In this document: piece by piece, positions 2,728 through 21,229 of the stretch
How the letters are laid out: the number at the start of each line of letters is the position of its first letter
How positions within the stretch are numbered: the first letter of the stretch is position 1
From: Alphaproteobacteria bacterium
GTDB taxonomy: Bacteria > Pseudomonadota > Alphaproteobacteria > Caulobacterales > Aquidulcibacteraceae
Reading direction: 5' to 3'
NCBI GenBank assembly: GCA_018971945.1
Contig: JAGWZH010000006.1
Coordinates: forward strand, 1-62,990
Length of the DNA: 62,990 nucleotides
The notes under the pieces: model-generated
Database searches by the model: none
The model's input: only the letters and a program-made list of their open reading frames with translations
Told to the model about the DNA's origin: nothing
Translations under genes and position numbers: made by a program

Positions 2728-4410
2728 TCAGGGGCGGACGTCCCGCGGCGCAAAGCGCGGCGCGGCCAAGCGCATGGCGACCAGCCCGGCCAACAAACCG
2801 CCGATCATCCACCAGTCAAAACGGGCATAGAGGGTTTCGCTTAAGGTCGCGGGCAGCTGCGCTTCAGCATAGCCCAGGGCCGGGTCGGCGATGTCGACGG
2901 CGCGGCCATAGGCGTCAATGATCGCGGAGATCCCGCCCGAGGCGGCGCGCGCCAAGGGCAGCCCCTCCTCGATCGCGCGATAGCGCGCGATGGCGAAATG
3001 CTGGGCAGGCCCCACCCCTCCTCCGAACCAGGCGTCGTTGCTGATATTGACGATCCAACCAGGACGCGCATCGCCCCGAGGCGTAAAGCCCGGGAAGATC
3101 GACTCATAGCAGATGTGGATGACCAAGGGCTCAGCCGCGGCGTCCACAACAAGACGTTGCGGCGGCGGACCAGGGCTGAAGCCAGCGCCGATGCGCTGCA
3201 GGGGCGCTATGTTCAGGGTGCTGATCAAAGACCACATTGGGATGAATTCGCCGAAGGGCGTCAAGCGGTGCTTGTCGTACAAACCGGCAGGGCGCGGGGA
3301 GCCTGTCACGGCGTCGATGACCAAAGCGGAGTTGGCGAAGACAAGGCCCTCAAGTCCCCGCTCGCCGCGGAAATAAGCCCGACACGCTTCGTCGGGGGCG
3401 CAGCTCGTCGCCCCGGTGATCAGGACGCGGTCGCCCATCACCTCGGCGATGAACCCCGTACGAACGGGCTCGAGCACATAGGTCCGGCTGCCGGGTTCGA
3501 CGCGGTTGACAAGGGTGTAGGCGCTCGCGGGGATCGCACCCTCGGGCCATATCACGAAATCAGCGCTGCTCGTCTCTGAATCCCCTGACACGCCCAGATA
3601 GGCGAGGAGCACCTCGTCTGGGTCAGAAGCCCATTTCTCGCGTTGGCTCAAGCCTGGTTCAGCGACCCGCACGACAGGCGTCGCGCCGGGCACAGCGATG
3701 CTGGCGGAGGACAATCGCTGGAAACCAAAGCCCCAGAGCAAACCGAAGCCAAGGGCGCTGACCATGACAAAACCGAAACGGCGGACACCCCTGCCATGGT
3801 CGAAAATGGCCGCAGGGGACGCTGCGAGGAGCAGGGTGAGCACGGTCAAGCCATAGGCCCCGACAACGGAGGCGGTTTGAGAGACAGCCCCCCCCGGCGC
3901 CCAGACATAGGCGGATAAAAGCCAGGGGAAGCCGCCAAACAGGTGCCCCCGGAGCAGGTCAGCCAGGGTGTAGGCCAGGACAAAGACCGGGATGCGGCGA
4001 TAATCATCCGTCCAGAACGGCTTGGCGAGGGCCAGACAAACCGCAGGAAAAACAGCAAGACCGCAGCCCAAAGCAAGGGTCGCCAAGACGCCGAGAGCCA
4101 GATTGAAATCGGGGTTCACGGCGAAGGCCTGCGACACCCAATGCAGGCCGCTGACGAAGTGGCCGGCGGCGAACCACCACGCGCGGGCGAAGACGGCCTT
4201 TCGCCATGTCTTAAGCGGGGCTGAATCCATCAGCCAGACCAGAATGGTCATCGCCACAATCAGAGCGGGAACAACATGAAAAGGGGCGTGGGCCAGGGTG
4301 GCCATGGCCCCTGCCGCCAATGCCAAAGCATGGGCGCGCCAGCCGGTCAGCCGCGCGAGAAGCGGTCGGATCGGCAAGGCTTGGCTGGGGGACTGGGCGG
4401 CAGCGGTCAC
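2728..4410 (-). CDS. lnt: Apolipoprotein N-acyltransferase
   Basis: Inner-membrane enzyme that adds the third acyl chain to the N-terminal cysteine of lipoproteins. The 560-residue protein has the Lnt layout: several N-terminal transmembrane helices (about residues 25-230), a periplasmic nitrilase-like domain, and a final helix. The catalytic triad is visible as E290 (WPEG), K380 ([13 protein letters not shown]) and C434 (HICYES). The start is GTG at 4410 with GGAGAG six bases upstream. It follows corC by 80 bp in the miaB-phoH-ybeY-corC-lnt order usual in alphaproteobacteria. Many lipoproteins in this window would be its substrates. Confidence 0.95.
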
Positions 4411-17161: not shown

Positions 17162-17626
17162 CCTGCCGACCGTGGGGGCGAATCACAGAGGATGGCAAGG
17201 GGTGTCAAGGGGGTCGGTCGTCATCGATGGCGACACCTATCGGCCCATGACGGCGAGGCGAGGCTCCGCCCCGCCACGCGTCGCCTGTCTCTGTCTGGAG
17301 GGCTTTCATCGTCAAGGCCGCTCTCCGCGCCGAGGATCAGATTTTCGCCAAGGCTCAGAATCGCGCCTTTTTCATCGGGCCTATTTCATGGCGCCCGTTT
17401 CATGGGAGCCCGTTTCATGGGAGCCCGTTTCATGGGGGCCCGTTTCATGGGGGCCTGTTTTTGGGAGAGGCGTCCGCCGGCTCATCCTCGCTCGGGCTTT
17501 CCCGCCGACGCTTCAAGCCGTCTCACGCCGTTTGCGTTTGGCCAGGGCGCGGCGTTTTGACCCTGCGGGAAGGCGTTTTGTCGACCGCTCTCAGGTCCGT
17601 CGGCCACAGAACCGCGCGCCTCCCGC
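17162..17626. other. Intergenic region between alkB and the PII-like gene
   Basis: About 465 bp without a credible gene. The main structure is the 14/15-bp tandem array at 17373-17460. Both flanking genes are on the minus strand: sbtB-like ends here and alkB begins here, so promoters for alkB are expected near 17162-17250, but none could be defined confidently. Confidence 0.6.
17373..17460. repeat. Tandem array, about 6 x 14/15 bp
   Basis: Head-to-tail units of the form CATGGGAGCCCGTTT. Clear 15-bp copies start at 17401, 17416, 17431 and 17446; a 14-bp copy starts at 17387 and a more decayed one at 17373. Neighbouring copies share the same variant (two with GGGAGCCC, then two with GGGGGCC), as expected from stepwise duplication. 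Confidence 0.9.
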
Positions 17627-17935
17627 TCAAAACCGCTCCGGCCTGATCACTTGCACCTCAGACAGCACAATCACGCCGGGGTAACGTTTGAAAAGATCGG
17701 TGAAGGCGCGGCAGAGGCCGTCCACCTTGTCCGGCGGTGCAATGGCGACGACGAGGCGCATGTCGTGGACGTCCTTAAGCCCCGCATCGCTCCAGGCGCC
17801 GGAAAGGCCCTTGCCCTCGCGCCCGTCAAAGACCGCGTAGACTGAGACCGAGGCCTTATCGAGGAGCTCTTCCGCGCGCTTCAAAAGCGGGGCTTCGAGC
17901 CAGATCTCCATGCGGGTGCGGGGATGGGTCTGCAT
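17627..17935 (-). CDS. SbtB-like PII-family protein
   Basis: A 102-residue protein directly after the SbtA-like transporter. The sequence (EAPLLKRAEELLDKASVSVYAVFDGREGKG, then MRLVVAIAPPDKVDGLCRAFTDLF and a PGVIVLSEVQVIRPERF end) fits the ferredoxin-like fold of SbtB/PII-like proteins, which trimerise and gate bicarbonate uptake through adenine-nucleotide binding. ATG 17935 begins 5 bp after the sbtA stop; an internal ATG at 17911 is possible. Assignment rests on both the fold pattern and the gene order. Confidence 0.75.
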   Translation of the reverse strand: MQTHPRTRMEIWLEAPLLKRAEELLDKASVSVYAVFDGREGKGLSGAWSDAGLKDVHDMRLVVAIAPPDKVDGLCRAFTDLFKRYPGVIVLSEVQVIRPERF

Positions 17936-17939
17936 GGGG

Positions 17940-18917
17940 CTATAACACCATTTGCGCGAGCGCGGCGTAGGCGGGAATGCCGACAACGATATTGAACGGG
18001 AAACTGACGCCGATGGCCAGCGGCAGATAAACGCCCGCGTCGGCCTCGGGGAGCGCGATGCGCATGGCGGCGGGGGCGGCGATGTAGGAAGCGCTGGCGG
18101 CCAAAGTCATCAGGATCGCCGCATCATCGGCGGAGACGCCCAAGGCTAGGCTGCCGAGCAAGCCCAGCCCCGCCCCAATGGCCGGGATCATGAGCCCGCA
18201 GCAGACCAGATACGGGGTGAGGCGGTTCTTGCCCATGAGACGGCGGGAGGCGACGAGGCCCATCTCCAACAGAAACAAGCACAAGGCGCCAGCGAAGAGA
18301 CCATTCATGAAAATGTCGAGGCGCGCCATATGGCGTTCGCCCGTCAACAAGCCGATAAGGAAAGCGCCGACAAGAACCACGACGGAGCCGTTGAGCAAGA
18401 CCTCGCGGAGCAATTCGCCGCGGCGGCTTTCGCCCTGGGCTTCCCCCCTCTGGCCTCCGGCCAGCAGCAGGGCGACGATGATGCCGGGGGTCTCCATGAT
18501 GGCGGCGACGGCGGACAGATACCGACCGGGGTTGAGCCCCGCGCTTTCGGCGAAACTCATGGCGGCGACGAAGGTGACGATGGAGATGGAGCCGTAATGG
18601 GCGGCCGTGGCGGCTTTGGTGGCCCGGTCGACGCCTTTGGCGCCATTGAGCAGGGCGAAGGCGAGGACCGGCATGGCCAAAGACAAAGCGAGGCCAATGG
18701 CTATGGCGGAAAGAAACGCCTGGTCCAGGCCATTGGCGGCGGCGGCAGCGCCGCCTTTGTAGCCGATCGCCAAAAGCAGATAAATGGAAAGGCCTTTGGC
18801 GACCTGCTCGGGAATGGACAAGTCCGACCGAACAAAGCCGCCCGCCAGCCCCAGAGCGAAGAAAAGCACGGGGGGAGACAGAAGATTGGCGCCCGCCAAG
18901 GACAATAAATCGGTCAT
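17940..18917 (-). CDS. SbtA-like sodium-dependent bicarbonate transporter
   Basis: A 325-residue inner-membrane protein with about ten helices. It has the SbtA-family pattern: LLSPPVLFFALGLAGG at the start, GLSIYLLLAIGYKGG in the second helix, AAHYGSISIVTFVAA in the middle of each half and ASASYIAAPAAMR near the end. SbtA takes up bicarbonate with sodium. ATG 18917 (MTDLLSLAG) fits the family; the frame extends upstream without homology. It is followed 5 bp later by a PII-like partner, as in cyanobacterial sbtAB. In a heterotroph it may supply bicarbonate to carboxylases. Confidence 0.88.
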   Translation of the reverse strand: MTDLLSLAGANLLSPPVLFFALGLAGGFVRSDLSIPEQVAKGLSIYLLLAIGYKGGAAAAANGLDQAFLSAIAIGLALSLAMPVLAFALLNGAKGVDRATKAATAAHYGSISIVTFVAAMSFAESAGLNPGRYLSAVAAIMETPGIIVALLLAGGQRGEAQGESRRGELLREVLLNGSVVVLVGAFLIGLLTGERHMARLDIFMNGLFAGALCLFLLEMGLVASRRLMGKNRLTPYLVCCGLMIPAIGAGLGLLGSLALGVSADDAAILMTLAASASYIAAPAAMRIALPEADAGVYLPLAIGVSFPFNIVVGIPAYAALAQMVL

Positions 18918-19028
18918 GACGCCGCCCGTTACAGAGTTTTGGAGACTTTGCCCAGACCGGGGCGCACGCAAAGGGGCCCAATCGACCGCGCCGCGCGGGA
19001 TCGGGACGAGGCCGGGTTGGAGCGACGA

Positions 19029-19070
19029 GGATTCAGCGGCGGGGATTCAGCGGCGGGGATTCAGCGGCGG
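19029..19070. repeat. Tandem array, 3 x 14 bp
   Basis: Three exact head-to-tail copies of GGATTCAGCGGCGG at 19029, 19043 and 19057, followed by a loosely related GC-rich stretch. The array lies in the 386-bp gap (18918-19303) between sbtA and dnaK, about 17 bp upstream of the proposed heat-shock promoter. No gene is seen in this gap. Confidence 0.92.
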
Positions 19071-19086
19071 CTTGTGCGGCGGGCGG

Positions 19087-19114
19087 CTTGTGAGGAAGAT
19101 TGGGCTTCCCATAT
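19087..19114 (+). promoter_or_regulatory. Putative RpoH (sigma-32) promoter of dnaK-dnaJ
   Basis: CTTGTG at 19087-19092 and CCCATAT at 19108-19114 are separated by 15 bp, close to the heat-shock sigma consensus (CTTGAA, 13-16 bp, CCCCATNT). It is 190 bp upstream of the dnaK start on the same strand. No CIRCE element is seen. The match is by eye, so moderate confidence. Confidence 0.5.
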
Positions 19115-19303
19115 CAGCGCTGAGGTCGTTTGGCTGGGGCACCAGCTGGACGCTATTGGCAGGCTTGGACCGCCAAGCGCTTTCAGCGCGAGGCCACAGC
19201 CGTTCGGATGAGGGGCGATCCCGCCTTTCCCCAGTCGCCGGTTCTCCGGGCCCGGGGGTCAAGGGTAGGCTCCGCCGCCGCAGAGTGAGGACAAGGACGC
19301 GAC

Positions 19304-21229
19304 ATGAGCAGGGTTATCGGCATCGATCTCGGGACCACGAATTCCTGCGTGGCGATTATGGAAAACGGCCAGCCGAAAGTGCTGGAGAACGCCGAAGGGG
19401 CGCGAACGACGCCGTCGGTGGTCGCCTTCACAGAAGGCGCGGAGCGCCTGATCGGGGTTCAGGCCGTGCGCCAGGCCATGACCAATCCGGAGCATACCTA
19501 TTACGCCGTGAAGAGGCTGATCGGGCGGACTTTCGAAGACCCGATCGTGAAAAAAGATGCGGCCCTGGTGCCCTATCGAATCGTCAAAGGCCCTTCGGGC
19601 GACGCCTGGGTGCAAGGCCGTGATAAGGCGTTCGCGCCCTCGGAAGTCAGCGCCTTCGTGCTGCAGAAGATGAAAGAAACTGCCGAAGCCTATCTCGGAG
19701 AGCCGGTGACCAAAGCCGTCATCACCGTGCCCGCCTATTTCAACGACGCCCAGCGTCAGGCCACCAAGGATGCAGGCCGGATCGCGGGTCTCGAGGTTCT
19801 GCGGATCATCAATGAGCCGACCGCGGCCGCGCTCGCCTACGGCCTCGATAAGACAGGCAGCGGGAACAAAACGATCGCCGTTTATGATCTGGGCGGGGGC
19901 ACGTTCGACATCTCGATCCTCGAGATCGGGGACGGCGTGTTCGAGGTCCGCTCCACCAATGGGGACACTTTTCTTGGCGGGGAAGACTTCGACGGTCGGA
20001 TCCTGAACTATCTCGCAGACGAATTCAAAAAGCAGACCGGGGTCGATCTGCGCGGGGATAAAATGGCCCTGCAAAGGCTTAAGGACGTCTCTGAACAGGC
20101 CAAGAAAGAATTGTCCTCGCGGGCCGATTTCGACGTGAACGTGCCGTTCATTTCGATGGATCCGAACACCAGGAGCCCTTTGCACCTCAATATGAAGATC
20201 ACGCGGGCGAAATATGAGGCGCTTGTGGAGGATCTGGTGCAGCGGACGCTGGAGCCCTGCAAACAGGCGCTGAAGGACGCGGGCCTCTCGGCAGCGCAGA
20301 TTCAAGAAGTCGTGCTTGTGGGCGGCATGACGCGCATGCCGAAAATCCAGCAGGTGGTTAAGGAGTTCTTTGGCCGCGAGCCGCACAAAGGCGTCAACCC
20401 TGACGAGGTGGTGGCTGTGGGCGCCGCGATCCAGGCAGGCGTGCTGCAAGGCGACGTGAAGAACGTGGTTCTGCTCGACGTCACGCCGCTGTCTTTGGGC
20501 ATTGAGACGCTTGGCGGGGTTTTCACCAGGCTCATCGACCGAAACACCACCATCCCGACCAAGCGAAGCCAGGTGTTTTCGACCGCGGAGGACAACCAGC
20601 AGGCCGTGACCATCCGGGTGTTCCAGGGCGAGCGGGAAATGGCGGCGGATAATCGTCCGCTGGGCCAGTTCGACCTGATCGGCATTCCCCCCGCCCCGCG
20701 CGGCATGCCGCAGGTCGAGGTGACTTTCGACATCGACGCCAACGGCATTGTCAGCGTCTCGGCGAAAGATAAGGCCACGAACAAAGAACAGTCCATGCGG
20801 ATCCAACCTTCGGGCGGGCTGTCGGAAGACGACATCAAGCGTATGGTCAAGGAGGCCGAAGAGCACGCCAGCGAAGACAGGGCGCGCCGGGAGCTTGCAG
20901 AGGCGAAGAACCAGGGCGAGGCGATCGCCAATACGACAGAGAAGCAGCTCGCGGAACATGGCGGCAAAATCAGCCCAGCCGACAAGCAGGCGATCGAGTC
21001 CGCCATCGCCGATCTGAGGGGCGTTTTGTCATCTGACAACGCCGCCGACATTCAAGCCAAGACACAGGCCCTCATTCAGGCGTCGATGAAGATCGGCGAG
21101 GCGATGTATGGCGGTCAAGCCGGCGGCGGCGCAGCGCCCGGCGAAGGCGGTTCGACGGGCGGCCAAGACGAAGGCGTCGTGGACGCAGAGTTTGAAGAAG
21201 TCGACGGCCAGAACAAGCGCAGCGCGTAA
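19304..21229 (+). CDS. dnaK: Chaperone protein DnaK
   Basis: Hsp70 ATPase of 641 residues. The ATPase domain starts [12 protein letters not shown] and includes [39 protein letters not shown] and [11 protein letters not shown]; the linker is followed by [13 protein letters not shown] of the substrate-binding domain, and the glycine-rich acidic tail ends in [10 protein letters not shown]. Works with DnaJ and GrpE in protein folding and heat-shock control. It is 69 bp upstream of dnaJ, with a strong hairpin between them. Confidence 0.99.

Follow-up and report, generated by a model that had tools for sequence, protein, structure and literature searches.

An SbtA-like transporter and a CPII-like protein form a putative inorganic-carbon module in an alphaproteobacterium

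The window, a stretch of 62,990 nucleotides from an alphaproteobacterium of the Aquidulcibacteraceae (contig JAGWZH010000006.1), carries a gene for an SbtA-like transporter followed directly by a gene for a PII-like protein. The two probably encode a PII-gated Na+/bicarbonate symporter that supplies housekeeping carboxylases in a heterotroph, an interpretation in which we have moderate confidence. The analysis showed that the transporter has the SbtA fold, that the small protein has a PII fold nearest to that of CPII, that such genes are frequently paired in Alphaproteobacteria, and that relatives of them are recurrently linked to beta-carbonic anhydrase genes, mostly in genomes with no RuBisCO match. 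A wider generalization can be offered only tentatively: the pair may exemplify a widespread alphaproteobacterial inorganic-carbon module apart from carbon fixation, in which an SbtA-like clade with a remodelled pocket is combined with a CPII-like bicarbonate/adenylate gate, often in an operon with a beta-carbonic anhydrase, and in which a divergently transcribed LysR regulator has taken over from the PII gate in some lineages. In the available portion of a review, the inorganic-carbon gene set is described as widespread in heterotrophs and most abundant in autotrophs (PMC10880623).

The gene pair and its conservation

The pair at 17627-18917 (Table 1) is real, with both genes on the minus strand. 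Homologous pairs in the same order are present in 18 of 61 genomes, including that of the window, and in 70 of the 80 nearest loci from named genomes (the best 80 of at least 583), so neither ORF is due to chance. The initial annotation had the PII-like gene starting 5 bp after the SbtA-like gene; the adjacency and order were correct, but the gap is 4 bases.

Table 1. Features of the transporter/PII-like gene pair in the window
Feature	Coordinates	Strand	Details
Sbt_1-family (SbtA-like) transporter gene	17940..18917	-	325 aa, ATG start; coding 18917 to 17943, stop 17942-17940
Intergenic gap	17936..17939	-	4 nt, read from sequence
PII-like (CPII/SbtB-like) gene	17627..17935	-	102 aa, ATG start; coding 17935 to 17630, stop 17629-17627

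The genome to which the window belongs comprises 3.41 Mb in 233 contigs and is 99% complete. No promoter was found in a scan of positions 17300-19400; the same region contains 7 terminator-like matches, 6 of them within the transporter gene. Two tandem arrays flank the pair, one of about 5 copies of a 15-bp unit at 17370-17467 and the other of 3.6 copies of a 14-bp unit at 19021-19070, between the pair and a divergent dnaK gene. An NCBIfam search returned no meaningful family for either protein.

Among the 61 genomes, 28 (that of the window included) encode the transporter, and in 18 of these the PII-like gene is adjacent. The remaining 10, eight of which belong to genus g6 (the others are G003 and G006), have no PII-like gene in the flanks available. 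The scan of named genomes yielded at least 583 transporter relatives, the best 80 of which were analysed; since these 80 loci are the nearest, the fractions given for them describe near relatives only. The PII-like gene lies directly downstream of the transporter gene in the 70 paired loci, with a gap of -4 to 27 nt (median 4; best 80 of at least 583). Roseibium, Thalassospira, Erythrobacter, Jannaschia, Hoeflea and Rhodobacter are among the genera that bear the pair. Of 120 Pseudomonadota genomes sampled, 10 had an Sbt_1 match, 9 of them over the cut-off. Five of these 9 loci (window included) have a PII-like gene downstream, the canonical SbtA locus L139 has a convergent one, and three have a LysR gene instead. 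An sbtA-like gene was also seen in Candidatus Bandiella numerosa of the Midichloriaceae (L094:2604-3587), where the surrounding stretch contains no PII, LysR or beta-carbonic anhydrase gene.

The transporter

The predicted transporter matches the Pfam family Sbt_1 (PF05982) at 338 bits (cut-off 27; E 6.3e-101), and a profile built from 19 of its relatives retrieved Synechocystis SbtA, Slr1512, at 2.7e-37. Its AlphaFold model (pLDDT 93.2) superimposes on SbtA (8zor_A) with a VIA Z of 36.5 and 3.0 A over 318 residues, the next fold families reaching Z 21.9. The model has broken helices at 108-112 and 275-279, which correspond in the alignment to the crossover of TM4 and TM9 in SbtA. Over 313 aligned positions, 24% of the residues are identical to those of Slr1512.

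A tree of 120 rows was made by a quick method, with long branches flagged and with Slr1512 as the only cyanobacterial row. In it, Slr1512 and two alphaproteobacterial sequences, L139 (64%) and L145 (60%), form a clade of their own with support of 100, and the window transporter falls apart from this clade along with 116 other rows. The residues predicted to line the pocket differ as well. In the Slr1512 model, bicarbonate is contacted by S114, Y140, S324 and S327, and replacement of any one of these four by Ala reduces transport to about 10-40% (PMC8352866). At these positions the window protein has S, A, S and A in the alignment, so that two of the four (S114 and S324) are kept, and A138 and A280 of the window protein occupy the places of Y140 and S327. 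The tree alignment has S114, S322 and S324 conserved in all 117 non-canonical rows, the window included; Y140 and S327 are absent from every one of them, and position 325 is Tyr in all 117 versus Asp in the three canonical rows. The separate clade and the changed pocket residues assign the window transporter, as judged from sequence, to an SbtA-like sister clade and not to canonical SbtA. The initial annotation had named a phylogenetic position outside SbtA as the finding that would count against its proposal, and the tree does place the protein outside the canonical clade. According to the part of one report that was available, a cyanobacterial SbtA-like protein with 24% identity to SbtA is thought unable to compensate for missing SbtA (PMC11890772).

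Several related genes were seen in the course of this comparison. A second Sbt_1 transporter in the genome of the window (L002, G000:C169:10755-11672) has no PII-like neighbour, is 37% identical to the first, has Asp at the position of Slr1512 S327, and is placed beside L032 of G003 on a long branch. The alphaproteobacterium G055 holds both types: a window-type pair (L146) and a canonical SbtA gene (L145:1675-2721; product 60% to Slr1512, with an unaltered pocket) that is accompanied by a separate PII-like gene at 2734-3048. In G010, from the family of the window, the transporter shows no difference from L065, from a MAG labelled Hyphomonadaceae, in the columns that were compared, so the window probably comes from an alphaproteobacterium of Hyphomonadaceae type.

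The PII-like protein

The predicted small protein matches the Pfam family P-II (PF00543) at 30.6 bits (cut-off 25; E 4.6e-07). In a phmmer search the top match was CPII of Thiomonas intermedia (5d4n; 1.3e-9), and a profile of 70 PII-like homologues again ranked CPII first (1.2e-17), with TTHA0516 and SbtB after it. The structural model (pLDDT 89.6) gave the same order: CPII was first in Foldseek (5d4o; 4.6e-9), and VIA Z was 15.8 for CPII (5d4p), 14.4 for TTHA0516, 13.0 for SbtB and 11.8 for GlnK2. By sequence and predicted fold, CPII thus appears to be the closest PII subgroup among solved structures. The titles of the CPII structures list bound ADP, AMP and bicarbonate. Across the alignment of these 70 homologues, G41, G43 and R98 never vary, W48 is found in 68, and the putative T-loop motif GxGxxGxW is nearly invariant. 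The CGPxGC redox loop found in some SbtB homologues is absent from the window protein, which ends in VIRPERF and has C75 as its sole cysteine. That the small protein has the PII fold, on which the initial annotation had staked its proposal, is borne out by the PF00543 match and by the resemblance of the model to CPII, SbtB and GlnK; the description of the partner as SbtB-like is less apt, with CPII being nearer and the C-terminal cysteine loop of SbtB missing. The likeness to an sbtAB module is accordingly partial: an SbtA-family transporter with a PII-fold partner, the sbtAB-like arrangement and the absence of a RuBisCO match were upheld, but the canonical SbtA clade does not include the transporter, and CPII is a closer match to the small protein than SbtB is.

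Canonical PII (GlnB/GlnK) was considered as the identity of the small protein and ruled out: its nearest relative is CPII, and a whole-genome P-II search found two canonical PII genes elsewhere in the same genome (118 and 103 bits). The loose first look of that search passed over the window gene itself. A search of the genome contigs with the PII-like protein alone as query gave no match.

Linkage to carbonic anhydrase genes

Of the 80 named loci (best 80 of at least 583), 28 have a beta-carbonic anhydrase gene no more than 600 bp away, and all 28 have the PII-like gene. The carbonic anhydrase gene is upstream on the same strand in 13, downstream on the same strand in 14 and upstream on the opposite strand in 1, and PF00484 was confirmed for all 10 of the neighbours tested. 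About 0.06 such neighbours would be expected by chance; this figure assumes some 1.3 beta-carbonic anhydrase genes per 3.3 Mb genome, from 77 genes in 61 genomes (79 match pieces, which makes no change). On the best tree, there are at least 16 changes in whether a locus has a carbonic anhydrase gene, and the linkage is therefore not one inherited accident. The gene order among relatives is likewise varied, for example carbonic anhydrase-sbtA-PII in G043, sbtA-PII with a convergent carbonic anhydrase gene in G052, and sbtA-PII-carbonic anhydrase in G195. In all eight genomes of genus g6, a PII-less cousin of the transporter gene faces a carbonic anhydrase gene.

The other 52 of the 80 loci (best of at least 583) have no beta-carbonic anhydrase gene within 600 bp, nor is there one at the window locus; the one beta-carbonic anhydrase match of that genome is on another contig. 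The neighbours found in relatives support a role in inorganic-carbon metabolism. A look for carbonic anhydrases elsewhere had been suggested in the initial annotation, and the repeated linkage in relatives fits bicarbonate as the substrate.

Loci without a PII-like gene and other neighbours

A divergent LysR gene accompanies 8 of the 10 PII-less loci versus 2 of the 70 loci with PII (best 80 of at least 583; Fisher p 7e-8, kinship ignored). The PII-less count includes L122, whose contig ends just after sbtA, and the divergent count leaves out L112, which does have a LysR ORF. An independent-pairs test of PII against LysR was not significant (6 pairs, 0.0 in the same direction and 2.8 in the opposite one, with a median p of 0.25). 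LysR as an alternative mode of control in PII-less loci is only a lead, and any exclusion between PII and LysR is not strict, because G010 has a LysR gene beside a PII-bearing pair.

Forty flanking ORFs were scanned for other partners, comprising 37 of the 57 candidates from PII loci without carbonic anhydrase and 3 others, two of these in the carbonic anhydrase-bearing loci L064 and L092. No Pfam family was present in more than 2 of the 40; some recurrent partner may have escaped notice, since a number of these ORFs are perhaps not genuine genes.

PII-less sbtA-like genes at L087:1508-2569 and on plasmid pSA4125 (L142:3015-4960) are situated near genes of the TerC/Alx family and of the LysR type, the LysR-type regulator of pSA4125 being annotated as a hydrogen peroxide-inducible genes activator. 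Such genes possibly have a different function, in metal, alkaline or oxidative stress. Plasmid-borne sbtA-like genes were also noted in Cereibacter, Tritonibacter, Maritalea, Aureimonas and Azospirillum (H1-H10). In Maritalea and Aureimonas the plasmid regions have no PII-like gene in the gene table, which is incomplete, and that of Maritalea has a divergent LysR gene.

Candidate carboxylases

No RuBisCO_large match was found in the 99% complete genome of the window or in any of the 28 sbtA-bearing genomes among the 61, in agreement with the original proposal that the module serves something other than CO2 fixation. The sole match over the cut-off among the 61, a strong one (G018:C4:186792-187685), is in a genome without sbtA, and a weak match in G048 is below the cut-off. 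RuBisCO was accordingly rejected as a correlate of the module in this set. Among the 70 PII-bearing named genomes, 50 were examined, and 12 of these had a RuBisCO-family match over the cut-off, so some bearers of the pair may be autotrophs. Five of the matches exceed 280 bits (G065, G069, G071, G099 and G107); the others, of 63-237 bits, are perhaps RuBisCO-like proteins.

The initial annotation had suggested that bicarbonate may feed carboxylases such as crotonyl-CoA carboxylase/reductase, in keeping with an mcd gene at 30.7 kb. Over the cut-off, ccr was found in 39 of the 61 genomes: 20 of the 28 with sbtA, 13 of the 18 with the pair, and 19 of the 33 without sbtA. Four pair-bearers (G043, G052, G055 and G059) have none. 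In the genome of the window, a fragment on contig C106 reaches 169.8 bits, below the cut-off, and covers only profile positions 292-397. Since ccr does not track sbtA, this suggestion was not sustained. The gene at 30.7 kb encodes a long homologue of acyl-CoA dehydrogenases. Its score falls short of the cut-off for each of the 19 NCBIfam models listed, and it lies about 12 kb from the pair, with nothing to suggest that the two are connected.

PEP carboxylase has no match in the genome of the window. It is over the cut-off in 38 of the 61 genomes; 16 of these matches are strong (unbroken and above 600 bits), and the other 22 are weak and cover only part of the length (30-68 bits). Strong matches occur in 2 of the 18 pair-bearers, 4 of the 33 genomes without sbtA, and all 10 of those with PII-less sbtA, a contrast that amounts to about two events because the 10 consist of eight genomes of one genus and two tree neighbours. 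In Methylobrevis albus a PEP carboxylase gene (L107:5492-8233) lies 173 bp downstream of the sbtA-PII pair, the only such adjacency in the 80 named loci (best of at least 583). Two biotin carboxylases are encoded in the genome of the window. With the distributions of RuBisCO, ccr and PEP carboxylase, this makes general biotin-dependent carboxylation the likeliest use of the bicarbonate that the module would supply.

Proposed function and alternatives

In the scheme that we propose, the transporter would import HCO3- together with Na+ through an elevator-type movement, and the PII-like protein, presumably a trimer, would read adenylates and perhaps bicarbonate. When uptake is unneeded, the GxGxxGxW T-loop would plug the transporter, as in SbtB-SbtA and GlnK-AmtB, with the block set by some adenylate/bicarbonate state. 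The imported bicarbonate would feed biotin-dependent carboxylases and other housekeeping carboxylations and not a CO2-concentrating mechanism. Several observations count against this scheme: two of the four bicarbonate contacts are lost, the cyanobacterial SbtA-like protein of similar identity is thought unable to stand in for SbtA, the window locus and 52 of the 80 named loci (best of at least 583) have no neighbouring beta-carbonic anhydrase gene, SO_3758 with its SASYI motif is tied to formate tolerance, 12 of the 50 named bearers examined have RuBisCO-family matches, and the inorganic-carbon gene set is commonest in autotrophs. In the available part of one study, co-expression of SbtB abolished uptake in 4 of 5 SbtA-SbtB pairs (PMC4275256), and the T-loop of SbtB enters a cleft of SbtA (PMC8352866); by analogy, the PII-like protein should sit on and block its transporter.

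Transport of a different small anion, for example formate or some short monocarboxylate, with the PII-like protein gating that anion and the carbonic anhydrase linkage reflecting general C1/pH physiology, seems unlikely. The pocket gives this idea some substance, for all 117 non-canonical rows have Tyr for Asp 325 and lack Y140 and S327. The SASYI motif is, moreover, that of Shewanella SO_3758, for which the available text reports that formate tolerance rises with a point mutation and with expression in Zymomonas (PMC12093963). It is opposed by the repetition of the carbonic anhydrase linkage (28 of 80 loci, the best of at least 583, and 8 of 8 g6 genomes) and by the lack of a formate gene among 25 of the 34 Pfam families listed for the 40 flanking ORFs. 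We regard as quite unlikely a bicarbonate exporter or pH/CO2 homeostasis valve, in which carbonic anhydrase would hydrate respiratory CO2 and the transporter would move bicarbonate out or in so as to keep the internal pH steady. Import is what Na+ symport normally drives and the fold is that of the importer SbtA, although carbonic anhydrase linkage with no recurrent carboxylase partner would suit such a valve. So would the PII-less cousins beside TerC/Alx and the Na+/H+ antiporter families that adjoin the pair in isolated cases (MNHE in L043, Na_H_Exchanger in another locus), and the modelling by the Shewanella authors, in the portion of their paper at hand, was more consistent with efflux (PMC12093963).

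A canonical sbtAB that supplies either ccr/mcd of the ethylmalonyl-CoA pathway or some hidden route of CO2 fixation is very improbable. The ccr fragment on C106 speaks for it, and mcd is a loose fit for the acyl-CoA dehydrogenase gene in the window. Against it are the similar frequencies of ccr with and without sbtA, the four pair-bearers that lack ccr, and the absence of RuBisCO from the 28 sbtA-bearers. In addition, the substrate of Ccr is CO2, not bicarbonate. Gated bicarbonate uptake for housekeeping carboxylation is thus the reading that we retain.

Comparison with known systems

PII-gated bicarbonate transporters have so far been studied mainly within CO2-concentrating mechanisms. Homologues of the window transporter are named 'sodium-dependent bicarbonate transport family permease' by NCBI, and an SBT permease is noted in heterotrophic SAR11 in the available part of one report (PMC10030771). 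Should this clade prove to transport bicarbonate, many heterotrophs would be handling their inorganic carbon actively by means of a gate of this type, and the permease annotation would hold despite a pocket unlike that of solved SbtA; if it does not, the annotation is wrong for hundreds of genomes, given at least 583 relatives. No description of an SbtA-like/CPII-like/carbonic anhydrase module of heterotrophs, or of the altered pocket, was found in the open-licence literature, which is no proof of novelty.

The window pair resembles Slr1512/SbtB (slr1513) of Synechocystis in Pfam family, in the SbtA fold with its broken crossover helices, in S114, S322 and S324, and in having the PII-like gene directly downstream. 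It differs in that the transporter is only 24% identical and belongs to a separate clade with Tyr at D325 and no Y140 or S327, that the PII partner has no CGPxGC loop, and that the genome has no RuBisCO match. CPII of Thiomonas intermedia K12 (5d4l, 5d4n-p, 5drk and 5ds7) is the best match to the PII-like protein in sequence and predicted fold, but the two are only about 28-30% identical. CPII is said, in the title of Wheatley's 2016 paper, to be carboxysome-associated, whereas the window's genome has no RuBisCO_large match.

The MpsAB proteins belong to a family that is not known to be related to the Sbt_1 transporter. In Staphylococcus aureus, a non-autotroph, MpsAB is a proposed inorganic-carbon transporter for anaplerosis, so that a bicarbonate system in a heterotroph has a precedent, as far as the available part of that study goes (PMC6689103). 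The putative bicarbonate transporter SO_3758 of Shewanella shares the SASYI motif, by which alone the two were compared; unlike the window protein, it was studied, in the text available, for formate tolerance (PMC12093963). In GlnK-AmtB a PII protein also plugs a membrane transporter (PMC8352866; available part of PMC4275256). That pair differs from the window pair in that GlnK is a canonical PII and AmtB an ammonium channel.
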